In this document: positions 922 through 63,016 of the stretch, one piece after another
Layout: every line of letters begins with the position of its first letter
How positions within the stretch are numbered: the stretch's first letter is position 1
Source of the DNA: Pseudomonadales bacterium
GTDB taxonomy: Bacteria > Pseudomonadota > Gammaproteobacteria > Pseudomonadales > Azotimanducaceae
Direction: 5' to 3'
DNA: 63,016 nucleotides
NCBI GenBank assembly: GCA_019090615.1
Contig: JAHRVQ010000079.1
Coordinates: 1-63,016 of the forward strand
Program-made: the position numbers and the translations under genes
The notes under the pieces: model-generated
Databases searched by the model: none
The model's input: the letters and a program-made list of their open reading frames with translations, nothing else
What the model was told of the DNA's origin: nothing

Positions 922-3660
922 ATGGATGAAAGTATTTTTTCCGCACGGACTGCGGAAGTTTCCTGTCAGGATATTGGTTGGTGTTTCGATCTTTGTAAAG
1001 ACAGGCAAATGGAATTCACCTGTATCCTGCAAAATGTTCCTTACCCCCTGGAACACTTGCAAAACCCGGCCTGCTTTATTGATTGGCAAAGCTTTGCCAT
1101 CCTGTTTAATAATTTTCTTAATTATTTATCCGAAGCTGAAATAAAAGTCGCGGGAGGAGATTCCTGGCAAAGCCATAGCTTACGCATCTACACTATTATC
1201 GGCAAACTACTGCACAACCTGCGCGAGCAATATACTTCTGCATATGGTCCGGTTGGTTTTGTCGCCAAACATTATCCCTGTGAGTTATCACTCAAAGAGG
1301 TTTATCCCGGCCGAATTAGAATTATCTTAAAGATGAACTCAGGTTTAATCCCCTGCCATGCTTTTCAACTGGCGTTGGCAGGTCAAATGACCGGCCTGCC
1401 CCGTGTGCTGGGATATCCGGATGCCAATGTTGAAGTCTATCAACGCCTTGATGGTGCAGAGTTTAATGTCTACTACCCGCTTTTCCGCGAATTAATCTCG
1501 CCGCTTCGCAAGCTGTTTGCCATTCCCTTCGCAAAAAAAAACTCAGCGATTGAACTGGCACACTCCCAACAGGCATTACTAGAAAAATATCGAGAAATTC
1601 AAACCGTCAAAAATCAGCTGCTAGAAGCCCGACAACAACTGACCGATTCCCAGATAAAATACGATTTGCTAGCCGCCAATGTGACCGACGTCATCTGGAT
1701 CACTAACCTGAAGCTACAACTGGAATATGTCAGCCCATCAGTTAATGGGTTATTAGGCTACACGGAAGCAGAATCCTTAGCGCTTGGGATGATAGAAATC
1801 CTCGGCCAGACATCCATTGATAAAATAAAGGAATATATTTCCGCAGCACGCAGGGGAAAACTGGATTACGCCAAAACACATATCTTTGAGGCCGAAATAT
1901 TTCGTAAAGACCACCGCCCTGTATGGGTTGAAGTGAAGTCAAATTTTTTACTTGATCAATCTGGCAAAACAAAACAAATAGTTTCTGTTATGCAAGACGT
2001 GTCCATTCGCCGAGATATTCAAACCAGCTTAACCAACAACGAAAAAAGTTACCGCGTTATCACTGATACCGCCCAGGATGCAATCTTCACCTTTAATAAC
2101 CAGGGTTATATCACCTTTGCAAACCCGTCAACGGCACGTTTATGTAACTACCCAGCCGAAGCATTAATTGGTCAGTGCGTCAAAACCATTATCCCCGAGG
2201 CATACAACCTTGCGCCGCAGGAACTTACCCAACTGGACCATCACAATGTCATCCTCAATCTAATCACCAGTAAAATGGAAAGCATTTCGGTGGAAATTTC
2301 CTTTGCTCAACATCAGCGTCTGGGCAGCATTTTCTATACTGGCATTGCGCGGGACATCACCCAAAGAAATGCGCACCAAAAAGAACGCGATCGTCTACAG
2401 GCGCAATTGTTCGCCGCACAAAAAATTGACTCCATCGGTCAATTGACCGGGGGCATCGCACATGATTTCAACAATCTGCTGGTTGCAATAAACGGTTACG
2501 CTGATTTAGGCATAAGCAAAAAAGATGATCCAACAAATCTTCAACACTATTTTTCGGAAATCAGGCTAGCCGGCCAACGCGCCGCAGACATGACAGGTAA
2601 ACTCCTGGCTTTTAGTCGCAGACAAATCATTGAGCCTGCAATTTTTGACCTTCGCAGTCTAATAGACGGTCTAGAATCCATGTTGGAACGATTAATACCA
2701 GAAAACATCAACATCAATTTTGAGCAACCCTCCACAGCACTCAATATTCTTGCCGACAAGGGGCAGATTGAACAGCTTTTGGTCAATCTTGCAGTTAACA
2801 GTCGAGATGCAATGCCTGGCGGTGGCAATCTCTATATCCGCTGCTACAACCGGTTAGTTGATTCTGACTATGCCCACCTTTTCAATGAAGCTAAACCGGG
2901 TAACTACGCGGTAATGCAGGTAAAGGATACCGGCTCCGGCATGCAGGAAACACTGAAAAATAACATTTTCGAGCCGTTTTTCACCACTAAACCAGAAGGT
3001 GCAGGTACGGGACTAGGGCTATCAGTGGTATTTGGAATAGTAAAACAACATCATGGGTTTATTGATGTGCAAAGCAAAATGGGTATTGGCTCAACATTCA
3101 GTATTTTTCTACCGCTGGTAGAAAAAGTCGCTAGCCCCACCCTGCCCACAGCCCAACAATCAAGGTTCAACGGCTCAGAGATGCTGCTTATTGTTGAAGA
3201 TAACCAGCAGGTCAGAGATCTCGCTAGTATCATTCTTTCAGAAGCCGGCTATCAGGTACTTACCGCTGCCGATGGCATTGAGGCGCTGAATACATTTCGT
3301 CAACAGCACCTGGCAATTGACCTTATTCTAATGGATGTAGTCATGCCAAGAATGGGCGGCCATGAGGTCTATGAAGAAATGCAGCTAATACAGCCTGACG
3401 TGAAAGTTATTTTCACCAGCGGTTATGCCGAACAGGGCATCCACACCAATTTCATTTTGGAGCAAGGATTAGACTTCCTCCAGAAGCCCTACCAAACTGA
3501 CTCGTTATTAAAAAGAATACATCAGGTATTAGACTACCAACCCGACCATAGCGGTAATCCTGCTCCTAACAGCAATCAAGCCATTAACAACAATCAAGCC
3601 GCGAGCAACGATGAGGCCAATAGCAACAATGAAGTAGAATCCACGACAAATATTGAGTAA
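922..3660 (+). CDS. Hybrid sensor histidine kinase with two PAS domains and a receiver
   Basis: A 912-residue cytosolic hybrid kinase; no membrane segment is seen. Order: an N-terminal domain I do not recognise (about 30-200), a short coiled coil (about 215-245), PAS (about 245-365), PAS (about 370-490), HisKA with phospho-acceptor H514 in the IAHDFNNLL box, HATPase_c ending in GTGLGLSVVFGIVKQHHG, and a receiver with D805 in LILMDVVMPRMGG. The AHDFNN H-box marks the HWE/NtrB-like group common in PAS hybrids. The last 30 residues are a low-complexity Asn/Glu tail made of an 18-bp tandem repeat. The start is uncertain: no good ribosome-binding site precedes 922, and ATG at 1009 is an alternative. 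No dedicated output regulator is adjacent. Confidence 0.85.
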   Translation: MDESIFSARTAEVSCQDIGWCFDLCKDRQMEFTCILQNVPYPLEHLQNPACFIDWQSFAILFNNFLNYLSEAEIKVAGGDSWQSHSLRIYTIIGKLLHNLREQYTSAYGPVGFVAKHYPCELSLKEVYPGRIRIILKMNSGLIPCHAFQLALAGQMTGLPRVLGYPDANVEVYQRLDGAEFNVYYPLFRELISPLRKLFAIPFAKKNSAIELAHSQQALLEKYREIQTVKNQLLEARQQLTDSQIKYDLLAANVTDVIWITNLKLQLEYVSPSVNGLLGYTEAESLALGMIEILGQTSIDKIKEYISAARRGKLDYAKTHIFEAEIFRKDHRPVWVEVKSNFLLDQSGKTKQIVSVMQDVSIRRDIQTSLTNNEKSYRVITDTAQDAIFTFNNQGYITFANPSTARLCNYPAEALIGQCVKTIIPEAYNLAPQELTQLDHHNVILNLITSKMESISVEISFAQHQRLGSIFYTGIARDITQRNAHQKERDRLQAQLFAAQKIDSIGQLTGGIAHDFNNLLVAINGYADLGISKKDDPTNLQHYFSEIRLAGQRAADMTGKLLAFSRRQIIEPAIFDLRSLIDGLESMLERLIPENININFEQPSTALNILADKGQIEQLLVNLAVNSRDAMPGGGNLYIRCYNRLVDSDYAHLFNEAKPGNYAVMQVKDTGSGMQETLKNNIFEPFFTTKPEGAGTGLGLSVVFGIVKQHHGFIDVQSKMGIGSTFSIFLPLVEKVASPTLPTAQQSRFNGSEMLLIVEDNQQVRDLASIILSEAGYQVLTAADGIEALNTFRQQHLAIDLILMDVVMPRMGGHEVYEEMQLIQPDVKVIFTSGYAEQGIHTNFILEQGLDFLQKPYQTDSLLKRIHQVLDYQPDHSGNPAPNSNQAINNNQAASNDEANSNNEVESTTNIE
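3553..3642 (+). repeat. 18-bp in-frame tandem array, about 5 copies
   Basis: Five degenerate 18-bp units starting at 3553, 3571, 3589, 3607 and 3625 encode six-residue units (GNPAPN, SNQAIN, NNQAAS, NDEANS, NNEVES) at the C-terminus of the hybrid kinase. The unit is a multiple of three and preserves the frame. It belongs to the window-wide family of short tandem arrays. Confidence 0.7.
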
Positions 3661-3807
3661 CAACAGGCCAACTCCCGCCACCCAGCTGGATATCTCTACA
3701 GAGTGCAAAAAAGATACCCAGGAAATGGATGTGCGTAGTGAATTTTGAAAATTCGTGGTCAACTTCTATCTGATAGCAAACACTAGCATTACCTTAACCC
3801 CCAATAT

Positions 3808-3830
3808 GCGCTAATATAGCGCGCTTTTTT
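3808..3830 (+). terminator. Hairpin plus T-run, terminator candidate upstream of argS
   Basis: GCGCTA and TAGCGC form a perfect 6-bp stem around ATA, followed by GC and six T. It has the shape of a small rho-independent terminator, 150 bp after the kinase stop. It is also only 22 bp before argS, and TAATAT inside it could serve as a -10 box for argS (weak -35 TTACCT at 3789). The two roles cannot be separated by eye. Confidence 0.4.
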
Positions 3831-3852
3831 CATATCGTAGACTGCGTTATTT

Positions 3853-5610
3853 ATGAACATCAAACAACAATTAGAGACCACCATTGCAATCGCACTAGAA
3901 GCTGCAGGCGCACCTGATTGCCCTCCTGTGGTCAAGCAGTCGCAAAAACCAGGTTTTGGTCATTATCAGGCTAACGGCGTCATGGGGGCAGCTAAACGCT
4001 ACCAGATGAAACCGAGACAACTTGCAGAGAAATTGATAACACTACTAAACCTGCCTCAGGCGGCTAAAGTCGAAATCGCCGGCCCCGGGTTTATCAACAT
4101 CCACCTCAGCAACAGTTTTATCGCCGACCAATTAACTAAATTGCGAGATCATCCAAAACTCGGCGTGAAACAACAAATACCACAAAAAATTGTGATTGAT
4201 TATTCTGCACCGAACCTGGCGAAAGAAATGCATATCGGTCACCTTCGCAGTACCACTATCGGCGATGCAGCGGCTCGCATCCTCGAATTCCAGGGGCATG
4301 ATGTCACTCGCGCCAATCATGTAGGTGATTGGGGCGCCCAGTTTGGCAGTCTTCTCGCCTACATGGATCAAATTGAACAGGCCGGCCAACAACTTTCAAC
4401 TGAATTAAAAGATCTGGAGATTTTTTATCAAGCTGCCAGCCAGTTATTCAAAAATGATGCAGATTTTGCCCAGCGAGCGCGAAACTATGTGGTCAAATTA
4501 CAAAGTGGCGATCCTCGCTGCAAAGCACTATGGCAATTGTTTATTACCGAATCAATCAATCATTGTCAGGCTGTCTATGAGCGGCTGAATATCACCCTTA
4601 AACGAGCCGATATCAAGGCAGAAAGCGATTACAACGATGACCTGCCCGTTGTTGTCCAGGAATTAGAAGCCCAGGGGCATATTACGGTTTCCGACGGTGC
4701 CAAATGCGTATTTCTCGATCAATTCAAAGGTAAAGACGGCAAAGTCCTACCTGCTATGGTGCAAAAATCGGATGGCGGCTTTCCCTATCTGGCAAGCGAC
4801 CTTGCGGCCGTTCGATATCGCAGCCAGCGGTTAGCGGCTGATCAGGCCCTATATTTTGTTGATGCTAGGCAACAGCTTCATCTTTCTCAGCTATTTGCCG
4901 TCGCCGGGATTGCTGGTTACCTGCAAGATAATCAATCTTTCCGCCACCTGCCGTTCGGTGTCATCCTTAAACAGGATGGCAAACCTTTTAAAACCAGAGA
5001 TGGTGCAGCCGTGAAACTCGCCGATGTCATTGAAGAGGCTATCACTCGGGCTTATCAACTGGTGACAGAAAAAAACCCTGACCTAACAGAAGACAAAAAA
5101 CACAAGGTTGCTGAAGTGGTCGGCGTGGGCGCTATAAAATACGCTGAACTATCAAAAAACAGAGCCACAGACTATATTTTCGACTGGGATACAATGTTGT
5201 CATTTGAAGGCAATACCGCACCCTATTTACAATATGCCTATACCCGCATTAAAAGTATTTTCCGGCGAGCCGGATCACTCCGCGCCGGATCACTCCAGCA
5301 GGGCGATACCAGCGACGCCATACCAGGCGAAAAAATACACCTGACGGAAGACGCAGAAATAAAGCTGGCGCTGAAGTTATTGCAATTTGTAGAGGCAATA
5401 GAAGCAGTTACTGACGACTATCAGGCAAATATACTCTGCAACTATTTATATGAACTAGCAGGCCTATTCATGTCATTTTATGAATCCTGCCCCATATTAA
5501 ACGCGCCACAGGCAACCAAAGAAAGCCGGCTACTGATTGCAGATACAACCGCTCAGGTGCTCAAACAAGGTTTGAACCTGCTCGGCATCGAAACCATTGA
5601 GCAGATGTAA
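3853..5610 (+). CDS. argS: Arginyl-tRNA synthetase
   Basis: A 585-residue class I aminoacyl-tRNA synthetase that charges tRNA-Arg. It shows the HIGH motif (H127-IGH130, in MHIGHLRST), the ArgRS form of the KMSK loop (KPFKTR, from K377), an N-terminal Arg-tRNA-synthetase additional domain and the C-terminal anticodon-binding DALR domain. The length matches bacterial ArgRS (about 577 in E. coli). Residues 472-481 are a five-residue in-frame duplication (RAGSL twice, bases 5266-5295), just after the YAYTRIKSIFR helix. The gene overlaps folA by one base (TAATG), so the two are probably translated together. Confidence 0.97.
   Translation: MNIKQQLETTIAIALEAAGAPDCPPVVKQSQKPGFGHYQANGVMGAAKRYQMKPRQLAEKLITLLNLPQAAKVEIAGPGFINIHLSNSFIADQLTKLRDHPKLGVKQQIPQKIVIDYSAPNLAKEMHIGHLRSTTIGDAAARILEFQGHDVTRANHVGDWGAQFGSLLAYMDQIEQAGQQLSTELKDLEIFYQAASQLFKNDADFAQRARNYVVKLQSGDPRCKALWQLFITESINHCQAVYERLNITLKRADIKAESDYNDDLPVVVQELEAQGHITVSDGAKCVFLDQFKGKDGKVLPAMVQKSDGGFPYLASDLAAVRYRSQRLAADQALYFVDARQQLHLSQLFAVAGIAGYLQDNQSFRHLPFGVILKQDGKPFKTRDGAAVKLADVIEEAITRAYQLVTEKNPDLTEDKKHKVAEVVGVGAIKYAELSKNRATDYIFDWDTMLSFEGNTAPYLQYAYTRIKSIFRRAGSLRAGSLQQGDTSDAIPGEKIHLTEDAEIKLALKLLQFVEAIEAVTDDYQANILCNYLYELAGLFMSFYESCPILNAPQATKESRLLIADTTAQVLKQGLNLLGIETIEQM
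5266..5295 (+). repeat. 15-bp in-frame duplication inside argS
   Basis: CGAGCCGGATCACTC (5266-5280) is followed directly by CGCGCCGGATCACTC (5281-5295), differing at one base. The two copies encode RAGSL twice. This is a recent-looking in-frame duplication in an essential gene. Confidence 0.75.
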
Positions 5611-7093: not shown

Positions 7094-7220
7094 CAGGGCC
7101 AGAGCCAGACAATAAAATAGATGACGCCAAAACTATTTTGATGACCAAATATTTGGCATGATTGATAGTGTATTTGTTCAACCTAAAAGACTTTCAGGCA
7201 GCTTACAGCGCGCTAATTTC

Positions 7221-7318
7221 AACTATGACTTTAGAGCTATAACTTTAGAGCTATGACTTTAGAACTAAAATATCAGGACTATAATTTCAGAACTATGATT
7301 TCAGAACTATGATTCCAA
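7221..7318. repeat. 14-bp tandem array, 7 copies, running through a start codon
   Basis: Seven consecutive 14-bp units begin at 7221, 7235, 7249, 7263, 7277, 7291 and 7305. Typical units are AGCTATGACTTTAG and AACTATGATTTCAG. The seventh unit (AACTATGATTCCAA) contains the ATG at 7309 that opens the next gene. The unit is not a multiple of three, so the array is not ancestral coding sequence. Confidence 0.8.
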
Positions 7319-10119: not shown

Positions 10120-10857
10120 CTATTCAGGATTAAAAGAAAGCAGTGGATTAAGTAATTTTGAAAACCTGCCTAGCAAACGGATCGGCGCAGCAACTACAGA
10201 GACACAAATACATTCCTCGTCCTCACTAGCAATTGGCCTATGTATATTACCTGGGCCTCGAACAAGGAAATCACCCGGCAGGTATCTTCCATTGCCATCA
10301 GAAAAACTGCCCTGTAAAACAACAGTCACTTCAAGCCCCCTGTGATCATGGTTCGGCGTTTTCCCACCGGCCTTAATTTTATGTAAGGCTAATTCATAAC
10401 GCTGCTCGCCTACGGGTATTTTGGCAACTTGTAGCGAAGGCGACAAAGCCCGCCATTGCGGTGCCTTAACTGGAAACAAATTCTGGATCAAGGCTGGCAG
10501 TGTACGCAATTCTGCAGCTGAGTCTAAGCCACTTTTAGCAGTATTTTGACTGTTAACGGCATCAGGCGCCTGCCTGTCACGTAGATCAGTGTCACGTATA
10601 TCAGAGTCAAGTGGGTCAGTATCAGGGGTTGCTCCGTCAAGCATTGACCACAAACCATCTAACCCTGGTCCTACCATATCGCGGGGCGATATTTCATCAA
10701 GCAATGTTCCGCCGATATCCTCCAGCTGTGCCTTATACGATCGACAAGTTTCACAAAAATGTAAATGAGCAGAAATAGAAACAGAAAGTGCCGTACTTAA
10801 TCCGCCAACGGAATAATCCAGTAACATATCTAAATCGGGGTGCATTTTTACTGCCAT
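10120..10857 (-). CDS. chrR: ChrR-type zinc anti-sigma factor with cupin domain
   Basis: A 245-residue anti-sigma factor. The N-terminal zinc anti-sigma domain has H6, H31, C35 and C38, the same ligand set known for Rhodobacter ChrR. A variable linker (about 75-125) leads to a C-terminal cupin with ligands H170, H172, E176 and H206. In ChrR the N-terminal domain holds the partner sigma factor and the cupin is needed for release by singlet oxygen or organic hydroperoxides. Two bases separate it from the sigma gene upstream, so the two are co-expressed. The linker contains a degenerate DSDIRDTDLRD repeat. Confidence 0.9.
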   Translation of the reverse strand: MAVKMHPDLDMLLDYSVGGLSTALSVSISAHLHFCETCRSYKAQLEDIGGTLLDEISPRDMVGPGLDGLWSMLDGATPDTDPLDSDIRDTDLRDRQAPDAVNSQNTAKSGLDSAAELRTLPALIQNLFPVKAPQWRALSPSLQVAKIPVGEQRYELALHKIKAGGKTPNHDHRGLEVTVVLQGSFSDGNGRYLPGDFLVRGPGNIHRPIASEDEECICVSVVAAPIRLLGRFSKLLNPLLSFNPE

Positions 10858-14073: not shown

Positions 14074-16119
14074 ATGAAAAGTGCAGCCAGGGAAAACTTA
14101 CGCTATCTACAATTCTTCGCTCTCATCCTTTGGGGCTACCAGTCCAGTCTGCTGCAATTTGCATTACCTATGGGTTTTTTATGGGAAGCCCAATTCATGA
14201 TAAACAGACGATGGGATGTTCAACGAGAGGATTTTTATCGACTCGCTGATCTGACCAATATTAGCCTGATTGCAGTCATGATATTTTTATTTATGAATCG
14301 CACTGACTACCACTTCATGAACGCTCTGGTTCAATGGCTACCACTGCTTCTTTTTCCATTGATTATTACCACCAGTTACAGTACTCGAGAAAAAATACCT
14401 TCAGATGTCCTGTTTTATTCGTTACGTCGACAACACCAACCTGTTACCAGTGAATGGGATCTGGACCCGGTTCTATTTGGTGCGTGTCTACTTGCAGCAG
14501 GCACTAATACACACCTCGGCACGTTTTACTTTCCATGTATCGCACTGCTAGTCGGCCTCGCCTTATTTCGTAGTCGCCCAGGCAGGTACCAGATGCAACA
14601 TTGGTTACTGATATTTGGACTAGTGATAGTTTTTGCCCTGACGACTCAATTTCTGATTCACAATGGCCATCTGGCATTTAAAAGACGCACCGCAGCCTGG
14701 ATCGCAAGCTGGATTGAACAAAGATCAAACCCCCTGAAGACCCAAACATCCATCGGCACCATCGGACAATTAAAACTTTCAAACGACATTTTATTTCGGC
14801 TGCAAATAAACCCAACCAGAACTGTGCCGAAATTGATTCAGGAGGCGAGTTATAATCTGCCGCTGCGCAACGGTCAATGGACATTAATGGACTCTGTCTT
14901 TAATACGCTGGTACCGAGTAACGATTTTCACTGGAAAATAAACCATTCCACATTTGAATCTATGATTGAAGCTTCTGAATCTACGGTTGAACCTTCGCCG
15001 GAAGCTATGCCTAAGCCAACTTACCCTATGGACATCTATCGCGTCTTTAATCAAACCCCGGCCATTATCCCAGTGCCCATCGGTGCAAGCGAAATCATCG
15101 ATTTAGCCGCGCAAAAAATCAAACAGTCACCCTATGGCACGGTACAAGCTGAGGGCCTTGTCCCAGCCCTCAGGTATCGGACTAATTACCATCCTGCACA
15201 GAATATAAATGGCCCCCCAGAAGCGGCAGACAAGTTTCTACCCGCTCACTACAGAAAACTAATTGAGCAAACATTGGCATCTAAATCAGAGGGACCCTCG
15301 CAGCCTGATGCCACCCAGCCCCACAAGGCACTTAATGAATTTTTCCAAAACTATCGGTACAGCCTATATCAGAATGTCGAAGGTGCCGAACCAGCATTGG
15401 CCAACTTTTTGCTCAACAGCCATGCTGGACATTGCGAGTACTTTGCCACGGCGAGTGTTTTGCTCCTCAGGTATATGGGTTTCCCAGCTCGGTACATAAC
15501 AGGCTACTCAGTACAGGAATATAGTCCTATGCTAGACATGTATGTGGTAAGAAAGAGACATGCGCACGCCTGGGCCACGGCCTTTATAAACCATAAATGG
15601 CAAATAATCGATACTACACCGCAAATTTGGCTAGCCAGTGAAGCAGAACAAAAATCAATCTTGCAACCCATATTTGATCTAATCAGCAATTCAGGCTTTC
15701 TTTTTCACGCATGGTGGAATACGCAAAAACTCTCGGACAACAAAACAACCCTGCTTACAACAGCCTTTGTTCTTAGCCTGATATTATTCTGGAAAATATT
15801 TAACAGCCAACAAATAATTCAAGCCAACACTACCCTCCCGAGTAAAAAGACTGCTCCAACCCGCCAGGGCTCCGAATCACCCTTTTATAACATTGAAAAA
15901 ATATTGATATTAGAAGGTTATTATAGGTACCCCGGCGAGGGCTTCGAACCCTGGTTAGACAGAATTGGACTTGCACATTTAGCCCAACTACTACCAATAC
16001 ATAACCAGTGGCGATTTGATCCGAACGGAATATCAGCTACCCAGAAGCAAACATTAGAGCGCGCGGCCAGGGACCAGATAGAGAACATCATTCCCTCTCT
16101 ACATTCCAGAAAGAAATAA
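14074..16119 (+). CDS. TgpA-like membrane transglutaminase (DUF3488 plus transglutaminase core)
   Basis: A 681-residue protein with several N-terminal membrane helices (about 15-200, DUF3488 type), a periplasmic transglutaminase core and a final membrane helix (about 560-580). The catalytic triad is visible: C454 in GHCEYFATA, H498 in HAWATAF and D513 in IDTTP. It resembles Pseudomonas TgpA, an essential periplasmic transglutaminase of unknown substrate. Residues 295-308 carry a 21-bp in-frame duplication (14956-14997, ESMIEAS then ESTVEPS). Only 30 bp separate it from DUF58, so it is the third gene of the operon. Confidence 0.92.
   Translation: MKSAARENLRYLQFFALILWGYQSSLLQFALPMGFLWEAQFMINRRWDVQREDFYRLADLTNISLIAVMIFLFMNRTDYHFMNALVQWLPLLLFPLIITTSYSTREKIPSDVLFYSLRRQHQPVTSEWDLDPVLFGACLLAAGTNTHLGTFYFPCIALLVGLALFRSRPGRYQMQHWLLIFGLVIVFALTTQFLIHNGHLAFKRRTAAWIASWIEQRSNPLKTQTSIGTIGQLKLSNDILFRLQINPTRTVPKLIQEASYNLPLRNGQWTLMDSVFNTLVPSNDFHWKINHSTFESMIEASESTVEPSPEAMPKPTYPMDIYRVFNQTPAIIPVPIGASEIIDLAAQKIKQSPYGTVQAEGLVPALRYRTNYHPAQNINGPPEAADKFLPAHYRKLIEQTLASKSEGPSQPDATQPHKALNEFFQNYRYSLYQNVEGAEPALANFLLNSHAGHCEYFATASVLLLRYMGFPARYITGYSVQEYSPMLDMYVVRKRHAHAWATAFINHKWQIIDTTPQIWLASEAEQKSILQPIFDLISNSGFLFHAWWNTQKLSDNKTTLLTTAFVLSLILFWKIFNSQQIIQANTTLPSKKTAPTRQGSESPFYNIEKILILEGYYRYPGEGFEPWLDRIGLAHLAQLLPIHNQWRFDPNGISATQKQTLERAARDQIENIIPSLHSRKK
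14956..14997 (+). repeat. 21-bp in-frame duplication in the transglutaminase gene
   Basis: Two 21-bp units (14956-14976 and 14977-14997), each starting GAATCTA, encode ESMIEAS and ESTVEPS. Divergence is moderate. It lies in a linker between the membrane part and the transglutaminase core. Confidence 0.5.
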
Positions 16120-16578: not shown

Positions 16579-16659
16579 TCTGTCAAGTTTTATAAACCAG
16601 TTAGAACCCAGGCAAACGTCTCATCTCATGATCAGGCTGTCGAACAAAAATTGAAAACT

Positions 16660-16692
16660 AATTGAATAGCAATTGAGTAGCAATTGAATAGC
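16660..16692. repeat. 11-bp tandem array, 3 copies, in a leader
   Basis: AATTGAATAGC, AATTGAGTAGC and AATTGAATAGC are consecutive, ending 8 bp before the ribosome-binding site of the lipoprotein gene. A TTG at 16684 inside the array opens the frame further, but the TGGAG-ATG start downstream is better. Confidence 0.75.
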
Positions 16693-16713
16693 ATAAACAA
16701 TGGAGCAAAATCT

Positions 16714-21580: not shown

Positions 21581-21758
21581 ATAAAAACAGCCTTGGGCGA
21601 GACAATAAACAGCCCTGAGCCAGACCATAAACAGCCCTGAGCGAAAACATAAACAGCCCTGAGCCAGACCATAAACAGCCTTGAGCGAAAACATAAACAG
21701 CCCTGAGCCGGACAATAAACAGCCTTGGGCGAGACAATAAACAGCCCTGAGTCAGACA
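21581..21758. repeat. 22-bp tandem array, 8 copies, with 44-bp alternation
   Basis: Units begin at 21581, 21605, 21627, 21649, 21671, 21693, 21715 and 21737, each with the core ATAAACAGCC (ATAAAAACAGCC in the first, which is 24 bp). The spacing is otherwise exactly 22 bp. After the core two variants alternate: CTGAGCCAGACC-like and TTGAGCGAAAAC or TTGGGCGAGACA-like, so the higher-order period is 44 bp. It lies between the divergent dapD and DUF5062 genes. There are no unique spacers, so it is not a CRISPR. All three minus-strand frames are open through it because 22 is not divisible by three. Confidence 0.95.
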
Positions 21759-21845: not shown

Positions 21846-21917
21846 TTGTCAACACAACGTTTGCTACAACGTTCACCAAAACGTTCACTAAAACGCGCAT
21901 CAAACTGGCCACTCAAG
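21846..21917. repeat. Degenerate 12-13-bp array before the DUF5062 gene
   Basis: ACAACGTTTGCT, ACAACGTTCACCA, AAACGTTCACTA, AAACGCGCATCA and AACTGGCCACTCA follow each other up to the ATG at 21918. Copies decay toward the start codon. The frame is open through the array, which could mislead start prediction. Confidence 0.55.
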
Positions 21918-24757: not shown

Positions 24758-24809
24758 ACCGATAACTATCAGCAACAACTATCACCAACAACACTCACCA
24801 ATAAGTTCA
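24758..24809. repeat. 13-bp degenerate array, 4 copies, before the acyl-CoA dehydrogenase
   Basis: ACCGATAACTATC, AGCAACAACTATC, ACCAACAACACTC and ACCAATAAGTTCA are consecutive. The array ends just upstream of the AAGAGG ribosome-binding site. Confidence 0.6.
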
Positions 24810-28997: not shown

Positions 28998-29394
28998 ATG
29001 ACGTTCCTGTCTTTTTTAATATCAAGGGTAACAGGGCCTGACAATTCAGACCCTGTTAGTTATCAACGCGCGGCTCTACGTGGCTATAGACACGCTAATA
29101 GACAATATGCCTGCTTAATATAATTTTGTCACTCACAGCCTTTTTCAATACGGTTGTCATCTAAATCGATCCCTCAATTCAGCATAAGCTCTTCAATATA
29201 AGATGTTCATCGCAGCTCTTCACCGAAGCTCTTCACCTTAAATCAGGCATCAACTATAAATCAGTAACTGCCATTATTGGAAAAATGGCTCTTAGAACAC
29301 CTATATCTTTAATGCGCTATGATGAAACACAGCAATTAGTACATATTTAGCTTAGAATATAATAGTCAGAAGCCACGCTTTTAGAGTTAACATC
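28998..29394. other. 397-bp gap between divergent VOC and SEC-C genes
   Basis: No gene seen. It holds scattered copies of AGCTCTTCA (three between 29185 and 29240) and a promoter candidate for the SEC-C gene at 29336-29363. Confidence 0.4.
29336..29363 (+). promoter_or_regulatory. Sigma70-like promoter candidate for the SEC-C gene
   Basis: TTAGTA (29336-29341), a 16-base spacer and a perfect TATAAT (29358-29363), 32 bp before ATG 29395. The -35 box matches only three of six positions. Confidence 0.35.
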
Positions 29395-29780: not shown

Positions 29781-29825
29781 CTCTTGAGTAGAAAAAGCTC
29801 GAGTAGAAAAGCTCGAGTAGAAAAA
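29781..29825. repeat. 14-17-bp tandem array, 3 copies
   Basis: CTCTTGAGTAGAAAAAG, CTCGAGTAGAAAAG and CTCGAGTAGAAAAA are consecutive, in the space between the convergent SEC-C and MBL/cNMP genes. Confidence 0.7.
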
Positions 29826-32658: not shown

Positions 32659-32706
32659 GTTAGATCCGTCACGTTAGTTCCGATTTGTTGAATCCGACAC
32701 TTTGGT
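32651..32706. repeat. 14-bp array, 4 copies, containing the GTG start of the MBL/cNMP gene
   Basis: Plus-strand units TCCGACACGTTAGA, TCCGTCACGTTAGT, TCCGATTTGTTGAA and TCCGACACTTTGGT are consecutive. The CAC at 32656-32658 in the first is the GTG start on the minus strand. Confidence 0.7.
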
Positions 32707-33085: not shown

Positions 33086-34087
33086 ATGCGCCATCTGATT
33101 TTTTCGGCTATATTTATCCTGCTAAGCTGCCCTTTGTTCTTCATCCAGGCGCAAGCAAACCCTATCGCCACTAATGCTATTAAACAGTCTGAACCTATTA
33201 AACAGTCTGAACCTGTCAAACAGTCTGAACCTGTCGCCAAAGTGCCAGCCGAAGGGTTGCCAATCGGGCTATTTTTTAATACTCAATCACCGAAGCATTT
33301 ATTTTGGGCGGAAACCAAAACGGGCAAACTACATCTACTAGAAAGAACCACCAACAACACCTACAGCAAACGAAAAACAGTCCAGATTAGCATCGGTAAG
33401 GCAGGTACAGGCAAAATGGTGGAAGGTGATAAAAAAACACCCATCGGGGTTTATCGCCTAAAAAGTTTTTTGTCCGACAACCAGCTCGATAGCTTTTATG
33501 GCGCCGGCGCTTATCCGCTCAATTATCCCAATGTATGGGATAAACTATTATCGAGAACCGGCCACGGAATCTGGCTGCACGGGTTGCCTAAAGGTGTTAA
33601 CCAACGCCCTCTGTTAGACAGCGAGGGCTGCATCATAATCAACAATCAGGCACTAATAGAATTTGGTGAATTGATTAAACCAGGACAAAGCTTAATCGTC
33701 GTCTCAGAAACAATGAACTGGCTCAACGACGGCACTCACCAACCGGACGCAGATATAAACCTGGCTATCGAAAATTGGCTATCAGCCTGGCAAGCAAATG
33801 ATACAGAGACTTATCTCCACAGCTACCACTCAGCTTTTTCAGACAACAAACGTAATTTGCCCGCCTGGCGGATTTATAAGACCCGGGTAAATGCCCAAAA
33901 AAGTTACATCAAGGTCGACCTGTCCGAAGTTAGTATTATCGCCTACCCAGGAGAAAAAAATCTTGTTTCAATGCATTTTTTTCAACGCTATAGAAGTAGC
34001 AATTATAACTGGGCAGGGTGGAAGCAGCTTTTATGGCGCAGAGATGACAGCGGTGGATGGCGAATTTTATATGAAGGTAACGGGTAG
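33086..34087 (+). CDS. Secreted YkuD-domain protein with NTF2-like tail (DpaA/LdtF-like)
   Basis: A 333-residue periplasmic protein. A signal peptide (about 1-24) is followed by a six-residue repeat (IKQSEP, IKQSEP, VKQSEP) at about 32-49. The YkuD domain has H165 in LHGLPKG and the catalytic C182 in SEGC. The last 110 residues look NTF2-like. YkuD plus NTF2 is the arrangement of E. coli YafK/LdtF (DpaA), which detaches Braun lipoprotein from peptidoglycan rather than making 3-3 cross-links; which activity applies here is inference. A putative M14 peptidase lipoprotein follows after six bases, so the two form an operon. Confidence 0.88.
   Translation: MRHLIFSAIFILLSCPLFFIQAQANPIATNAIKQSEPIKQSEPVKQSEPVAKVPAEGLPIGLFFNTQSPKHLFWAETKTGKLHLLERTTNNTYSKRKTVQISIGKAGTGKMVEGDKKTPIGVYRLKSFLSDNQLDSFYGAGAYPLNYPNVWDKLLSRTGHGIWLHGLPKGVNQRPLLDSEGCIIINNQALIEFGELIKPGQSLIVVSETMNWLNDGTHQPDADINLAIENWLSAWQANDTETYLHSYHSAFSDNKRNLPAWRIYKTRVNAQKSYIKVDLSEVSIIAYPGEKNLVSMHFFQRYRSSNYNWAGWKQLLWRRDDSGGWRILYEGNG
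33179..33232 (+). repeat. 18-bp in-frame array, 3 copies
   Basis: ATTAAACAGTCTGAACCT occurs at 33179 and 33197, and GTCAAACAGTCTGAACCT at 33215. They encode IKQSEP, IKQSEP and VKQSEP in the linker after the signal peptide. The first two copies are identical, so expansion is recent. Confidence 0.9.
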
Positions 34088-35196: not shown

Positions 35197-35271
35197 TATA
35201 GCTCGAAAACCTATAGCTCGAAAACCTATAACTCGAAAACCTATAACTCGAAAACTTATAACTCAAAAGTT
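35197..35271. repeat. 15-bp tandem array, 5 copies
   Basis: TATAGCTCGAAAACC at 35197 and 35212, TATAACTCGAAAACC at 35227, TATAACTCGAAAACT at 35242 and TATAACTCAAAAGTT at 35257. Copies decay toward the 3' end. It lies 53 bp before the haemoglobin gene. Confidence 0.9.
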
Positions 35272-36558: not shown

Positions 36559-37365
36559 TTGGAACAAACATTGCCAAAAACTAAATATTATGTCGTCTGG
36601 GAAGGTCGAGAAAAAGGTATTTTCACTGATTGGCCAACAGTGCAAAAGTTAGTATCTGGCTATCCCAAAGCAAAACATAAGAGCTATAAGACGCAAGCTG
36701 AAGCGGAAGCGGCTTTTGCTAGCCGTCCAAAAGTCGCGCCACCACGACAAAAAAAAACCCCGCAAAACCTGGCTAGTAGCAACCAGTCTGCAAAAAAAAA
36801 CGCCCATGCCTCAAATGCCACAGCCAGCATCGATACAACGTTTGATATTCATATTTATTGCGACGGTGGTTGTGATCCAAATCCCGGCAAATCAGGGTCA
36901 GGTGTCGCGTTATACCAAGGCCTCAAAGTAAAACAGCTCTATTATGGACTATACAATCCAAACGGCACCAACAATACTGCCGAGCTTCATGCACTACATC
37001 AATCGATGCGCCTGTCCGTTGACTACCTGGCCAAAGGGTTAAAAGTGCAAATATTAGCTGATAGTAGCTATGCACTTAAGGCCATGACCCAATGGGCCGC
37101 TGGCTGGCAAAAACGCGGCTGGAAACGTAAAACTGGCGAACTAGCAAATGCCCAACTAATTCAAACAATGTATGAAGTTTATCTAAGCCTTGATAACCAG
37201 GTAAAAGATAACCAGGTAAAATTTCAACATATAAAGGCACATGCAGGTACCGAAGGTAATGAACTTGCAGACCGTCTCTGCTTACTGGCCATCCGGCATA
37301 AAATGGTTGAATTTAAAGCCTATTCAGGCACTGAAACTGTTAACCAATTGCTCGATTTAAGCTAG
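36559..37365 (+). CDS. rnhA: RNase HI with N-terminal viroplasmin/hybrid-binding domain
   Basis: A 268-residue eukaryote-type RNase H1 layout. The N-terminal hybrid-binding domain (KYYVVWEGREKGIFTDWPTV, about 9-55) is joined by a basic linker to an RNase H domain with D102, E142, D168 and D238 as the catalytic DEDD set. It removes RNA from RNA:DNA hybrids. Residues 212-221 are a five-residue in-frame duplication (DNQVK twice, bases 37192-37221). The frame opens with TTG at 36559; no ATG lies before the conserved part, so TTG (36559 or 36571) must serve. It follows udk by 30 bp. Confidence 0.9.
   Translation: MEQTLPKTKYYVVWEGREKGIFTDWPTVQKLVSGYPKAKHKSYKTQAEAEAAFASRPKVAPPRQKKTPQNLASSNQSAKKNAHASNATASIDTTFDIHIYCDGGCDPNPGKSGSGVALYQGLKVKQLYYGLYNPNGTNNTAELHALHQSMRLSVDYLAKGLKVQILADSSYALKAMTQWAAGWQKRGWKRKTGELANAQLIQTMYEVYLSLDNQVKDNQVKFQHIKAHAGTEGNELADRLCLLAIRHKMVEFKAYSGTETVNQLLDLS
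37192..37221 (+). repeat. 15-bp in-frame perfect duplication in rnhA
   Basis: GATAACCAGGTAAAA occurs twice with no mismatch (37192-37206 and 37207-37221), encoding DNQVK DNQVK. The identity indicates a very recent event. Confidence 0.9.
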
Positions 37366-49057: not shown

Positions 49058-50575
49058 CTAAAACACTATTGCGCTAGTTTCATCCATAGCCCAGCGCGTT
49101 TCTTCATCAACACTCCAGTCAATTAACTCAGTCTCTATACCCAAATCACGCATTTGCGACTGGTACCGAAGCGCAACATCAAGATCATCAAAAAAACCAA
49201 GGGAAAGTCGCCCAGCAAAACCTGGATAGGGTATTTTACTGTACTCCCTGATCTCAAGCGCAATCAGTCGAGAAATCATAGAATTAGCGTTACCCACTGT
49301 AGCGAGCAAATATTTTTTATCTAACCAGAACTCAGAAATTAGCTGGGTCAATTCCGACTCGACAGAGTTTTCAGGTGGCAAACCATACCAGTGATCTGCA
49401 ATCAACGCTGCTAGTTTGGTTTCCTGTCCTTCTGTACCCGCGGTTTTTGATACGCTATTCTGGTTTACCCTTTGATCAGACAAAGATTTATCTTCATCTA
49501 ACAGTAACCTACCTGAGCCTGACGGCTCTGAATCAGGAGACAAGCCGCTTAACAAATCTGGCGACAATGTTTCAGGTGCATTTTTCAACCCATAAGATGA
49601 CCTTACTGTGTCCCCGAGAGCAGGACTGATTTTTGCAGCCCGGACTTCCTTATTCCTTTGTATCACCGAAGAGTTTATACCCTGCTGGTACATAGCCTGT
49701 TGGCGCTTGTTTGCATTTTTGCGGCTTTTAAAAACCCCCAGAGATATGCGGTTCTGGTACGGAGGGCGATTTAAAATCAAATAGTCCTTAATTGACAAGC
49801 TTTTAAGGCGATTCACTGCCAACTTCGTCTCATCATCAACAAGTACAATAAATCCAGCATTCGCTGATTTACTATTAAGAGCCTCAGCCGTTCTACCATC
49901 AAGAGCCTCAGCGGTTCTATTATTAACAGCTTCAGCGGTTCTACCATCAAGAGCCTCAGCGGTTCTATTATTAACAGCCTCAGTGGTTCTACCGTTAAAA
50001 ACCCCGCTAACTGCAACAATGCCACCTGCAACTTCGCTCATCAGCTGGTTTGAACTGACCATCCGTGCCGGAAGTATTTCGGTTGCACGGTTTTTATTGG
50101 CCGATGTTAAGGCTTCAGTTTCGCTAAGGGCTTCTATTTCGCTAATGGCTTCTGATTCGCTAAGGGCTTCTGATTCGCTAAGGGCTTCTAACTCGCTAAG
50201 GGCTTCTATTTCGCTAAGGGCTTCTGATTCGCTAAGGGCTTCTAACTCGCTAATGGCTTCTGCCGTCAAGTAACTGGCTGAGATAGCACCATTAGCTGCA
50301 TCAACCTCTGGATGAGCGAGCACAGCGTCACGATCTACGGTTAGAGAAGTATTATCAGTTGGCATTACCGGCACGCAGGTAAATGTCCGGCGTCCTGACA
50401 CGGTATTATTCCAGCCGCACCGATAGTCATTATTACCTGCGCCAGGCAGAGGCATATCATTAGCGCTAGTGTCAGCAGCCAGGACAAGACTGATTATGCC
50501 CGCTATACCCGCCACCAATAACCAGGTGTGAATGACACCTGTGTGAGAAAATCTCTTCGGCATCCAATTCAGCAC
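49058..50575 (-). CDS. Repeat-rich exported protein with two SPOR-like domains
   Basis: A 505-residue protein with one N-terminal membrane segment or signal peptide (about 12-35). Residues about 105-155 are a six-residue repeat (EALSES, EALSEI and similar), followed by an eight-residue repeat at about 192-231 in which RTAEAVNN and RTAEALDG alternate. Two SPOR-like modules follow: RISLGVFKSRKNANKRQQAMYQQGI at about 275-310 and RLSLGFFDDLDVALRYQSQM at about 460-495. SPOR domains bind denuded glycan, so a cell-division or wall-associated role is plausible. The repeats probably form acidic helical spacers whose length varies between strains (inference). Confidence 0.75.
   Translation of the reverse strand: MLNWMPKRFSHTGVIHTWLLVAGIAGIISLVLAADTSANDMPLPGAGNNDYRCGWNNTVSGRRTFTCVPVMPTDNTSLTVDRDAVLAHPEVDAANGAISASYLTAEAISELEALSESEALSEIEALSELEALSESEALSESEAISEIEALSETEALTSANKNRATEILPARMVSSNQLMSEVAGGIVAVSGVFNGRTTEAVNNRTAEALDGRTAEAVNNRTAEALDGRTAEALNSKSANAGFIVLVDDETKLAVNRLKSLSIKDYLILNRPPYQNRISLGVFKSRKNANKRQQAMYQQGINSSVIQRNKEVRAAKISPALGDTVRSSYGLKNAPETLSPDLLSGLSPDSEPSGSGRLLLDEDKSLSDQRVNQNSVSKTAGTEGQETKLAALIADHWYGLPPENSVESELTQLISEFWLDKKYLLATVGNANSMISRLIALEIREYSKIPYPGFAGRLSLGFFDDLDVALRYQSQMRDLGIETELIDWSVDEETRWAMDETSAIVF
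49881..50000 (-). repeat. 24-bp in-frame array, 5 copies, with 48-bp alternation
   Basis: Plus-strand units begin at 49881, 49905, 49929, 49953 and 49977, each with the core GCCTCAGCGGTTCTA or one-base variants. ACCATCAAGA-like and TTATTAACA-like ends alternate, giving RTAEALDG and RTAEAVNN in the protein and a 48-bp higher-order period. Confidence 0.92.
50111..50272 (-). repeat. 18-bp in-frame array, 8-9 copies
   Basis: Plus-strand units begin every 18 bp from 50111 to 50255, with the core GGCTTCTGATTCGCTAAG and variants at positions 7-10 and 18. They encode the six-residue EALSES-type repeat. The last copy is partial. Confidence 0.95.
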
Positions 50576-52328: not shown

Positions 52329-52755
52329 AGCTTTTCTTCTCCTGCTAAATTCGATTTTCCATATCATCCATGTCCATATCATCCATGTAAGTAGCCGCTA
52401 CTAACACCTGCACGGCATTATTACCAATGACGTCATCAACATTAATAACACTGTTGCGAACATAGTGCTTTATTCTTACCGTACTTCGCAAACGCTATTC
52501 TTATAATTTTCGCGGCATTTAGCCGCAGCTAACTGTCACCAAGATTCATTTACACCAATACCACCTTCTTCTGCCCCGGCATTTTAATGAGCCCGGGTGT
52601 TTTATTTAGCCACGGCAATTTATATAGCCACGGCGTTTCTACTGGCACAGAAAGCAGCTATGGCTCATAATTCCTGAAACTCGCTGCTGCGGTCGGTGAT
52701 TGAGTAACGTCAGCCCATTCAGCCAGCACAATCTGTGATGAAATTTGAGGTATCA
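52329..52755. other. 427-bp gap between divergent ThDP-enzyme and DUF2058 genes
   Basis: No gene seen. It contains a 15-18-bp near-duplication (52359-52391, CCATATCATC...CCATGT), a perfect palindrome ATGACGTCAT (52430-52439) that could be an operator, and an 18-bp array (52574-52645). Confidence 0.5.
52574..52645. repeat. 18-bp degenerate array, 4 copies
   Basis: CCCCGGCATTTTAATGAG, CCCGGGTGTTTTATTTAG, CCACGGCAATTTATATAG and CCACGGCGTTTCTACTGG are consecutive. The copies are diverged, but length and phase are exact. Confidence 0.7.
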
Positions 52756-55298: not shown

Positions 55299-55681
55299 TA
55301 TTTTTATTTCCTTCTTATGTGATAAATAGTGATCGTAAATAGTTGTCGTAAATAGTTGTCGTAAATAGTTGTCGTAAATGGTTTTGAAAGATATTAACTA
55401 ACCCATTTTCTTTATCCAGCAATAACCTGCCATACCTTAATAACCACGATTAATAACCACGATTGGAACCGCCAGAGTCGAAATCGCAGGGGCTAGCAAC
55501 CATCAGCCAGGACTTTTTCAATTTACCCTATTTGCGGGCTTATCGGACAGCAAATATGCCAGAACCCTATAAAGCGCGTATCTTGGCCAAATCAATACCG
55601 GTGGTATAAAATTATTATTAAAATACGCCTGAAACCTGCGCGGGCCACACCAGCCCAGAATTCCAGACGCCATAATCGCAA
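55299..55681. other. 383-bp gap between the S9 peptidase and desaturase genes
   Basis: Holds a 13-bp array (55324-55384) next to the peptidase start and a second short repeat (TAATAACCACGATTAATAACCACGATT, about 55438-55464, two 13-bp copies). No gene seen. Confidence 0.45.
55324..55384. repeat. 13-bp tandem array, about 5 copies
   Basis: AAATAGTTGTCGT recurs at 55324 (one mismatch region), 55337, 55350 and 55363, with a decayed copy at 55376. It lies 26 bp upstream of the S9 peptidase start on that gene's 5' side. Confidence 0.9.
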
Positions 55682-56725: not shown

Positions 56726-56745
56726 AAAACAGATAAGTAATTTCA

Positions 56746-62040: not shown

Positions 62041-62826
62041 GTGGTTCAAAGTTCTATAGATTTAGATGTTTGGAAAGAAATTGCAATCAGCAAACAAATA
62101 TTAATTAAAACCGCTACCGATGCATTAGGACTTGATCCCGAATGCACCGAAGATGAGCTTGAGCTCGCCCTGAATCAGGGTATAAAACAAATTACAGAAG
62201 CAGAGAGCCTGGTCAGCGTCGCAAATGAGGCCAATCAGGCCGCCATTGCATCTATCGAGCAGAAACTACAATCCAGCGAAGAAAGCCGTTTAAAAACCGA
62301 GTCCGTCAATAAGAAACTTCAGGTTACTCAACTGGAACTGGACCTGCTTATTAAGTCCACGCGTAAACAGAGCGCTGAAGAAGTTAAAAAAACAGCTGTT
62401 CAACTCGAAGAGAAAACCAAAGCACTAAAGAAAATCAAGACCACTCTGGCAGACTCACCGGAAAACGTTGTAAAAAAGCTTAAGGCTTTGAACAAGAAAA
62501 AACTTGATGAAACCAATGCCCGCAAACGCGCAGAAGATGAAGCAAGAATCCAGAAAAAAGCTAAGCAAAAGCTGCAAAAGAACGTTGATGAACTAGAGAC
62601 CACGTTAAGTGATTCAACCAAACTTGTTGAACTCTACCGAGAACTGCGTGCTTTTTGCGAGGAACAATATACGCAATTGAAGGACCTGGTTGAAGACGAT
62701 GCCCTCACATCTCTACCAGATTCGAATGAAGACCTCCTTAAATCATTGCACAGTGAAGAAAGCAAAGAAGATGAAAAGGACGACAAAAAAGACGCAAAAA
62801 AAGATAAGAGCAATAAGAAAAAATAG
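62041..62826 (+). CDS. Coiled-coil protein of unknown function
   Basis: A 261-residue protein that I do not recognise. Residues 1-40 look globular (DLDVWKEIAISKQILIKTATDALG); about 45-225 are heptad-rich coiled coil (LQSSEESRLKTESVNKKL, LEEKTKALKKIKTTLAD); the last 20 residues are a Lys/Asp/Glu tail. No signal peptide is seen, so it is probably a cytoplasmic scaffold or nucleoid-associated protein. The start is GTG 62041, with GGAG six bases upstream; the ATG one base before it in another frame stops after six codons. Confidence 0.72.
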   Translation: MVQSSIDLDVWKEIAISKQILIKTATDALGLDPECTEDELELALNQGIKQITEAESLVSVANEANQAAIASIEQKLQSSEESRLKTESVNKKLQVTQLELDLLIKSTRKQSAEEVKKTAVQLEEKTKALKKIKTTLADSPENVVKKLKALNKKKLDETNARKRAEDEARIQKKAKQKLQKNVDELETTLSDSTKLVELYRELRAFCEEQYTQLKDLVEDDALTSLPDSNEDLLKSLHSEESKEDEKDDKKDAKKDKSNKKK

Positions 62827-62946
62827 CAACTTCAGCATTGACAGCTACTACTCTCCCCCCGAGCGACACTCACTAATTTGACAATACGTTGAGAAAAGCC
62901 GCTTGAGCGGGGCATGAGAGATCAGGCCGGTTGTATATAGAAAAAA

Positions 62947-63016
62947 CGCTCTGGTTGTTTATTGAAAACCCGCTCTGGCAGTTTATTGAAAAACCGCTCT
63001 GGCAGTTTATTGAAAA
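62947..63016. repeat. 24-bp tandem array, 3 copies, cut by the window end
   Basis: CGCTCTGG occurs at 62947, 62971 and 62995, and each copy ends TTTATTGAAAA. A decayed copy may precede it at about 62926. The motif GTTTATTG also occurs, on the minus strand, in units of the dapD-upstream array, so the two may share ancestry. The array continues past the window. Confidence 0.88.

Follow-up and report, generated by a model that had tools for sequence, protein, structure and literature searches.

Short tandem arrays in a marine Pseudomonadales genome: two probable populations, one of short-step duplications and one with a palindromic core

Described repeat systems and array density

Among repeats of microbial genomes, VNTRs or minisatellites are tandem arrays with copy-number turnover, limited to relatively few loci in each genome, CRISPR repeats exceed 20 bp and are separated by unique spacers of about 30 bp, and REP/BIME repeats are short, dispersed, palindromic, and often clustered. 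The last of these and their transposases are treated in PMC2817692. In marine Beggiatoaceae, TAACTGA forms many intergenic sets of direct repeats (PMC4679880). PARCELs are amphipathic protein domains of 25 residues (75 nt) arranged in tandem in coding genes, and are discussed alongside the Rickettsia palindromic elements, which are palindromic repeats in protein-coding genes (PMC2996958). The Borg elements of archaea carry head-to-tail arrays that are pervasive at independent loci and nearly all unique within a genome; these arrays, by definition of at least 3 units and at least 50 nt, are perfect and scarcely occur in the host genomes, and their units are divisible by three in ORFs, as against only 14-38% of intergenic ones (PMC9879509).

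We set beside these systems a window of 63,016 nucleotides, the whole stretch of DNA analyzed (contig JAHRVQ010000079.1), from a marine bacterium with a draft genome of 4.9 Mb in 92 contigs. Arrays were called with TRF (score of at least 50, period of at least 7, overlapping rows merged). The window contains 22 distinct arrays by this procedure and 27 at a score of at least 40, compared to averages of 0.2 and 1.2, respectively, in ten dinucleotide shuffles, which bears out the first-pass annotation's count of at least twenty. Its extension of the habit to the entire genome also held: 20 other stretches, comprising 329 kb beyond the window, show 27.3 arrays per 100 kb (34.9 in the window; 0.2 to 0.3 in shuffled sequence). 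A larger sample yielded 201 arrays, about 25 per 100 kb, and non-coding DNA carries about one array per kb. This density exceeds that of 24 of 25 sampled relatives (median, 5.0 per 100 kb); the lone exception, G030, had 35.0 per 100 kb in 40 kb and fell to 16.2 with 240 kb sampled. Two genus mates are less far below, at 14.0 (G003) and 11.6 (G004) arrays per 100 kb, and part of the habit may therefore be common to the genus.

The 201 arrays split into 181 that we term class B and 20, plus one more recognized by eye, that we term class A. The proposal of one sequence-independent process is in keeping with the 181, whose units are largely unrelated, and is not supported for at least 20 of the 201, which belong to a dispersed family with a palindromic core. 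We reject a single process shared by all arrays because class A and overall density vary independently across four genomes (G000, G001, G022, and G030): class A is common in the array-poor G022 and G001 and has no match in the array-rich G030. Two independent phenomena, class B slippage duplications and the class A palindromic repeat, probably overlap, a judgment that covers the explanation as a whole.

Class B: short duplications and the reading frame

The class B loci of the window are as follows, with the basis of each in brackets.

3573..3634, forward strand: 18-bp unit in a PAS/histidine kinase-receiver protein (922-3660), in its C-terminal tail (TRF score 61, Pfam)
5266..5295, forward strand: 15-bp doublet, 14/15 identical, in argS (sequence; not in TRF)
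7214..7314, no strand: 14-bp unit, intergenic (TRF; coding fraction 0.04)
10575..10624, reverse strand: 15-bp unit in a ChrR-like cupin gene (TRF, Pfam)
14955..14996, forward strand: 21-bp unit in a transglutaminase-like gene (TRF, Pfam)
16649..16693, no strand: 11-bp unit, mostly intergenic (TRF; coding fraction 0.22)
21849..21895, no strand: 12/24-bp unit close to where a weak ORF begins (TRF)
24764..24801, no strand: 13-bp unit, intergenic (TRF)
29206..29237, no strand: 13-bp unit, intergenic (TRF)
29786..29825, no strand: 14-bp unit, intergenic, containing an exact doublet plus 4 additional matching bases (TRF)
30352..30391, reverse strand: 21-bp unit in gene 29950-32658 (TRF)
32651..32683, no strand: 14-bp unit at a gene start (TRF; coding fraction 0.24)
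33177..33235, forward strand: 18-bp unit (KQSEPI/V) in an L,D-transpeptidase, in its N-terminal region, 94% matched (TRF, Pfam)
35197..35268, no strand: 15-bp unit, intergenic (TRF)
37192..37221, forward strand: exact 15-bp doublet in RNase HI (TRF, Pfam)
52358..52388, reverse strand: exact 15-bp doublet in a TPP-enzyme ORF, at its 5' end (TRF, Pfam)
55323..55383, no strand: 13-bp unit, intergenic, 4.7 copies (TRF)
55437..55464, no strand: exact 13-bp doublet, intergenic (TRF)

Counted over 792 kb, the unit is divisible by three in 52 of 54 gene-internal arrays versus 43 of 125 intergenic ones, a contrast of which gene calling could account for part, since a frame-breaking array splits the called gene and the difference is to that extent built in. 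The earlier observation that coding and non-coding unit lengths differ is upheld in this count. Its stricter form, that units inside genes are always multiples of three, applies to all 10 window arrays of score at least 50 lying fully inside called genes; among four weaker ones (score 40-49) there is one exception (43448; period 14, score 42), and two of the 54 genome arrays break the rule as well. The array at 52358-52388 was scored as coding, but its gene may really start downstream of it. TRF reports six of the seven loci first listed inside genes, and the seventh, at 5266, was missed by the program and confirmed as the 14/15 doublet; the copies called identical are so at 37192 and only 94% matched at 33177. 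For intergenic units, given initially as mostly 11, 12-13, 13, 14, or 22 bp, scores of at least 50 return 11, 13, 14, 15, 22, and 24 bp (intergenic and mostly intergenic arrays together).

Intergenic class B units are 13-15 bp long in 64 of 108 arrays, or 64 of the 100 with units of 10-30 bp, a range over which TRF recovered planted doublets evenly. In G030 the step is 15 bp. Fifty-nine of the 108 have from 2 to fewer than 3 copies. Many look young, because 32 of the 108 are perfect and 74 are at least 90% matched; 34 fall below 90%, so recent and decayed copies coexist, as had been noticed from the window. Sequence sharing is close to chance: 43 pairs have a common 9-mer (36 in shuffles; maximum, 48), and 158 pairs a common 8-mer, slightly above the shuffles (132; maximum, 154). 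Class B density is 99.7 per 100 kb between convergent genes, 68.9 between divergent genes, and 110.5 between genes of the same direction, and the A content of arrays is 0.353 versus 0.295 in non-coding DNA, on an arbitrary strand.

Flanking homology of at least 3 nt accompanies 19 of 30 isolated exact intergenic doublets, as against about 7% of planted ones. Eight of these 19 have at least 10 nt and are maybe remnants of three-copy arrays; once such cases are dropped, 11 of 22 remain, and among genic doublets the figure is 6 of 14. Two genic doublets can be viewed against their orthologs. The 5-aa insert that the doublet at 37192 makes in RNase HI is missing from the five closest orthologs; on the opposing side, distant RNases H align across it without a gap. 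The argS doublet adds a copy of RAGSL in a loop that is shorter in 13 of 13 compared relatives.

At the level of sequence, class B fits microhomology-primed slippage filtered by reading frame. The strand being replicated would move back by about 14 nt, re-pair at a short homology, and recopy the stretch; further slips would enlarge the arrays, point mutations would erode them, and frame-breaking copies in genes would be removed by selection. As part of the same joint judgment, we consider it likely that these duplications arise largely or wholly irrespective of sequence and with a preferred step of 13-15 bp.

Altered repair genes had been suggested as a place to look for the cause. MutS, PolA, and RecJ are all encoded at full length, so a mismatch-repair or flap-nuclease mutator by loss of any of these three is not supported; a stand-alone PolA-type 5' nuclease, which we take to be Xni-like, is encoded too. 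Loss of SbcC is likewise rejected, for the pattern is the opposite: the genome has a full-length candidate, below a model cut-off that only 1 of 14 control genomes exceeded, and seven other genomes searched gave no or only fragmentary matches. No altered gene that would raise the duplication rate was found among MutS, PolA, RecJ, and SbcC, and slower loss of copies could yield the same picture as a raised rate. Specifically, duplication could proceed at an ordinary rate with copies lost slowly or tolerated, so that arrays pile up because selection for compact DNA is weak. The larger genome (4.9 Mb versus 3.1-4.2 Mb in four genus mates) and slightly lower coding fraction (85.2% versus 86.2-87.5% in three genus mates, with G004 at 84.0%) are in keeping with this. 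However, the youthful look of many intergenic class B arrays speaks against it, as does a family member, G017, that is 81% coding and yet has 5.0 arrays per 100 kb (in 60 kb). We regard this alternative as unlikely.

Class A: a palindromic core in head-to-tail arrays

Five arrays of the window have one core in common, a link that the first-pass annotation did not make.

21585..21757, forward strand: class A array, 22-bp unit, CAGCCCTGAGC type, in a divergent intergenic region (TRF, core)
32890..32988, reverse strand: class A array, about 22-bp unit, AAGCCCTTAGC type, in a divergent intergenic region (TRF, core)
49870..49998, forward strand: class A variant GAG-C-CTC-AGC, 24-bp unit, antisense in a SPOR-domain gene (TRF, Pfam); assigned to class A by eye, counted as class B by the script
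50111..50262, reverse strand: class A array, 18-bp unit, AAGCCCTTAGC type, sense in the same SPOR-domain gene (EALSE repeats) (TRF, core)
62936..63016, reverse strand: class A variant CTG-C-CAG-AGCGG, 24-bp unit, reaching the contig end (TRF, core)

The core, XAGCCYTX'AGC (XAG-CC-YTX'-AGC), spans about 11 bp and is combined with a spacer of about 7-15 bp, mostly A/T-rich, in units of mostly 18 or 22-25 bp. Its forms include GAG..CTC, CAG..CTG, and AAG..CTT, with CTG..CAG rarer. X can pair with X' in all of the 46 arrays examined from 15 genomes (18.6 expected), in 25 of 27 arrays on a partly overlapping list (2 are not), and in 86 of 100 listed units (42 expected; 14 are not), and they show the highest mutual information among all column pairs. 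The genome holds 300 class A tandem pairs, as against none for the reversed pattern, and 12 singles where about 10 are expected; the element occurs here in arrays, and its single copies are no commoner than chance. Among 390 genomes of the order, 114 contain matches (16 for the reversed control), with a patchy distribution across dozens of genera of the Pseudomonadales and, inside some genera, counts from 0 to more than 50 pairs.

After removal of two duplicates, 25 coding class A arrays are sense and 10 antisense. Because they occur in genes in several reading frames and both orientations, their sequences indicate an element acting at the nucleotide level. Of the intergenic arrays, 5 of 15 lie within 20 bp of a gene 3' end. 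The z scores of nine folded arrays lay between -2.65 and 3.28, and two were below -1.5; with no consistent gain over shuffles, we rejected an RNA-structure role, and no match to Rfam above the gathering score was found in the window. One array searched against plasmids had no match, and a second had one match, of 78% over 45% of the array, in a Salinivibrio plasmid. Viral contigs gave at least 120 stretches with the pattern, 73 of the 80 listed being single pairs, a count that carries no weight either way.

A view of most arrays as regulatory or protein repeats with a function, kept by selection, would agree with the conserved core, its covarying bases, and the proximity of the 5 intergenic arrays to gene 3' ends. 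Class B, though, has little common sequence beyond chance and is spread roughly evenly over the three types of intergenic region, and we consider this reading very improbable. An assembly artifact is scarcely credible: the assembly is a draft in 92 contigs, and class A arrays start 5 of 20 other sampled contigs and reach the window's own end, but an artifact would not respect the frame as 52 of 54 genic units do, and contigs ending in arrays suggest collapse, not invention.

Returning to the two-population explanation, the class A palindrome would either be bound by a sequence-specific factor or itself make the repeat expansion-prone. A search of the literature, mostly at title and abstract level and covering few subscription papers, found no account of the core among the papers listed. 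Our most specific proposal is tentative, and we hold it at somewhat less than even: class A may represent a family of DNA-level repeats, widespread in gammaproteobacteria and so far undescribed, arranged head to tail, with at least three palindromic "alleles" whose sides nearly always match, expanding in place within and between genes through hairpin-assisted slippage or a putative sequence-specific dimeric factor, next to a separate, genome-wide duplication process of about 14 bp.

Comparison with described systems

Class A poses the puzzle of a tiny palindrome that keeps both sides complementary across dozens of genera. Like REP/BIME it is short, dispersed, and palindromic, but its arms are of 3 bp, it is arranged head to tail, and it lies in genes too; a link is rejected, as the presence of the Y1 transposase (PF01797) across 28 genomes does not follow that of class A: G337 and G242 have none, and G341, with a single class A pair, has 20 matches. 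CRISPR is excluded by the core of about 11 bp and the short, related spacers. The TAACTGA repeats of Beggiatoaceae are similar in being one short sequence in many intergenic repeat sets of marine sulfur bacteria, but the class A sequence differs, with a palindromic core, variable spacers, and copies also in genes. With the Rickettsia elements and PARCELs, class A has in common palindromic repeats in protein-coding genes, the tandem arrangement being that of PARCELs. Unlike PARCELs, class A has units of 18-25 bp, is also intergenic, and has no fixed peptide; it reads EPSA, SPER, EALSE, AEGSL, etc., not a 25-residue repeat, and is rejected as a PARCEL.

The genome offers a bacterial chromosome dense enough in tandem duplications, at about 25 arrays per 100 kb in contrast to VNTRs, for step length, homology use, and selective filter to be read directly, and the sharp step of 13-15 bp gives a quantitative hint as to how the duplications arise. 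The habit had been presented as not described in this group; the archaeal Borg elements already display it (PMC9879509). Like them, this genome has pervasive head-to-tail arrays at separate loci, the frame rule (52/54 versus 43/125), flanking partial repeats, contig-ending arrays, and A enrichment. Uniqueness of sequence per locus holds for class B only, with the slight 8-mer excess, and not for class A; perfection with at least 3 copies does not extend to class B, in which 2 to fewer than 3 copies predominate (59/108) and only 32/108 are perfect. The setting here is a bacterial chromosome, with mostly 2-3 copies, many of them decayed, and a sharp 13-15 bp unit. Of the described habits, that of the Borg repeats comes closest to class B.

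Array density in the genome and its relatives

The first-pass annotation proposed that short tandem arrays occur genome-wide and more densely than in relatives of similar composition, and within our sampling this holds. Using TRF (settings 2,5,7; overlapping rows merged, periods of <7 bp removed, score of at least 50), we recovered 22 arrays in the window, which spans contig C75 entirely (34.9 per 100 kb; mean of 0.2 arrays in ten shuffles) and 90 in 329 kb sampled from 20 other contigs of the same genome (27.3 per 100 kb; 0.8 in shuffles), a 4.88-Mb assembly in 92 contigs that is 97.5% complete. Against this value outside the window, 25 of 37 listed relatives, sampled at 19 to 122 kb each, gave a median of 5.0 per 100 kb (range, 0 to 35.0). 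The four genomes of the same-genus comparison set (G001 to G004) had 4.6, 4.9, 14.0, and 11.6, and G030, which belongs to a different family within the order, fell from 35.0 over 40 kb to 16.2 over 240 kb. All nine sampled relatives with 42 to 50% G+C (G001 to G004, G017, G022, G030, G031, and G033) lie below the window's genome, G030 by its 240-kb value. The 75 argS neighborhoods taken from named records (loci L036 to L110; 1.37 Mb, some from other phyla) held 60 arrays (4.4 per 100 kb), with individual neighborhoods of 8 to 21 kb reaching 32 to 38 per 100 kb (L070 and L075), and Escherichia coli K-12 had 5 arrays in 100 kb. Two of many Pseudidiomarina loci (L075 and L076) carry dense 7-bp and 41-bp, TAATATC-like arrays that are absent from most sister loci.

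The best matches of the window's ArgS (~70%) are from marine gammaproteobacterial MAGs, one labelled OM182 clade; a K189A-clade MAG ArgS matches at 62%. Over positions 1 to 60000, GC skew is steadily negative on the plus strand and AT skew is positive in 14 of 15 blocks, as if the window lay within one replichore.

Two array populations and the reading-frame filter

In 792 kb of the genome, 85.2% coding by script-made hexamer gene calls, we found 201 arrays (25.4 per 100 kb): 54 genic, 125 intergenic, and 22 straddling. The annotation had ascribed all such arrays to one sequence-independent duplication process, a reading that stands for most of them (class B) and fails for the most conspicuous (class A). 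Class A comprises 20 of the 201 arrays, each with at least two matches to a palindromic core around AGCCYTNAGC and periods of 18 or 22 to 25 bp; a shorter-cored variant at window positions 49870 to 49998, recognized by eye, falls under class B in the scripted sorting. The 181 class B units are hardly more alike than shuffled ones, with 43 unit pairs sharing a 9-mer (in 20 shuffles, mean of 36 and maximum of 48) and 158 sharing an 8-mer (mean, 132; maximum, 154).

The expected difference between coding and noncoding unit lengths was recovered: the unit is divisible by three in 52/54 genic arrays but in 43/125 intergenic (P = 3 × 10−16) and 8/22 straddling ones, a contrast favored in part by gene calling, as a frame-breaking array splits its gene and would then be counted as straddling or intergenic. 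Unit lengths of the 108 intergenic class B arrays are even across the three residues modulo 3. Density is 107 per 100 kb between genes and 8.0 within them. With all 14 out-of-frame straddlers taken as genic, there are 16 out-of-frame arrays in 675 kb of genes and 82 in 117 kb of intergenic sequence, still ~30-fold rarer per base in genes, a figure uncorrected for arrays that split a gene and were scored as lying entirely between genes. For in-frame arrays, too, the per-base density in genes is ~fivefold below that in intergenic sequence.

Paired arms, context, and spread of class A

The class A core can be written XAGCCYTX'AGC, and X and X' are nearly always complementary, in large excess over chance. 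In the 792-kb sample they are complementary in 72/78 array units versus 3/12 single copies. Across 46 arrays from 15 genomes (17 from the window's genome, 7 from G022, a relative, and 22 from stretches picked among the matches listed), the majority state is complementary in all 46 (expected, 18.6; reached in 0 of 10,000 permutations). Among the matches listed in the window's genome (100 of 300 pairs), 86/100 second units are complementary (expected, 42), as are 25/27 arrays, partly the same as those in the 46-array set; one array, at position 33839 of contig C2, is consistently C/C in its five listed units. The X/X' column pair has the highest mutual information of all pairs, and in variants with another arm (CTG-C-CAG) or a single central base the arms remain paired. 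In the sample, spacing is 17 to 18 or 22 to 25 bp and never 19 to 21 bp, though 9/100 of the matches listed lie at 19 to 20 bp.

With the longest ORF spanning an array (minimum, 360 bp; chosen on length) taken as its gene, 37/65 class A arrays are genic (35/63 without two loci fetched twice), and some of these ORFs, above all short and antisense ones, may be spurious. Read in the sense orientation, the core gives EPSA, SPER, EALSE/TALSE, or KPLA (25 cases), and in antisense it gives AEGSL, AQGC, and similar peptides (10 cases); because the peptides differ, what is conserved is not a peptide. A SPOR-domain gene (window 49058 to 50575) holds two class A arrays in opposite orientations (49870 to 49998, antisense; 50111 to 50262, sense). 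Five of 15 intergenic arrays in this genome lie within 20 bp of a gene 3' end, and others are in divergent regions. Class A arrays stand at the starts of 5/20 other sampled contigs, and another reaches the end of the window itself, so the real arrays are probably longer than assembled.

The tandem-pair pattern has 300 matches in this genome and none for the backward pattern. It matched 114/390 genomes from the order (63/142 genera; backward control, 16/390) and 26/369 from the class (control, 5/369), this genome included in each; the controls are our own tally from the tables, and the forward counts are upper bounds, some genomes matching through 7-bp simple repeats (among the matches listed, G199, G056, G289, G475, G562, and G715). 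Counts vary widely within a genus, from 0 (G371) to 62 (G337) in genus g114 and from 6 to 300 in the window's own. A related-looking array in G022 (L367, 183 to 309), built on another palindrome (GCC-TGT-GGC) with a comparable A-rich spacer, hints by its sequence at further repeat families of this design. Literature searches by core sequence and general terms, largely at the title/abstract level, found no description of class A.

Origin of class B and comparison with described repeats

Units of 13, 14, or 15 bp make up 64/108 intergenic class B arrays, and over all intergenic arrays with a score of at least 40 counts rise from 9 at 12 bp to 30 at 13 bp and drop from 27 at 15 bp to 6 at 16 bp. 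This peak is not a detection effect, since TRF recovered 85 to 97% of planted exact doublets (60 per period) across 10 to 30 bp. Thirty isolated exact intergenic doublets have a mean flanking homology of 4.8 nt versus 0.82 nt in planted ones; it is at least 3 nt in 19/30 (~7% of planted) and 0 or 1 nt in 10/30. Eight of the 19 have at least 10 nt and could derive from arrays of three copies; leaving these out, 11/22 have at least 3 nt, as do 6/14 isolated exact doublets in genes. In RNase HI, an exact 15-bp doublet adds five residues absent from all five closest orthologs (G003, G004, G012, G025, and G030); an ortholog of the same type is missing from two of the four genus mates. More distant RNases H mostly align ungapped across the site, which makes the insert derived relative to near orthologs only. 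The ArgS loop that holds a 15-bp doublet is shorter in all 13 relatives compared, of 80 fetched. G030, without a class A match, has its own 15-bp habit (15/24 genic arrays).

The simplest mechanism for class B is strand slippage, in which the growing strand would slip back ~14 nt onto short homology; our guess is that this length reflects the reach of a strand slipping back behind the polymerase. An alteration of mutS or a polymerase gene, suggested earlier as a cause, finds no support in gene presence: MutS and PolA are full length, by a criterion of presence and length that says nothing of function. RecJ is present, as is a stand-alone PolA-type 5' nuclease (271-aa frame), which we take to be Xni-like. 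A full-length SbcC-like ORF (1,026 aa; contig C76, 30571 to 33594; 285.6 bits, below the model's cutoff) has none or only fragmentary counterparts in the seven further genomes searched, including all four genus mates, and may represent a gain in this most array-rich genome.

A literature search, largely at the title/abstract level, found no report of a comparable habit on a bacterial chromosome. The Borg paper (PMC9879509) describes repeats that are filtered by reading frame, unique in sequence, flanked by partial copies, and associated with contig breaks, and class B resembles them in all of these respects. Because of these shared features, we regard class B as a variant of a described kind, here on a bacterial chromosome.
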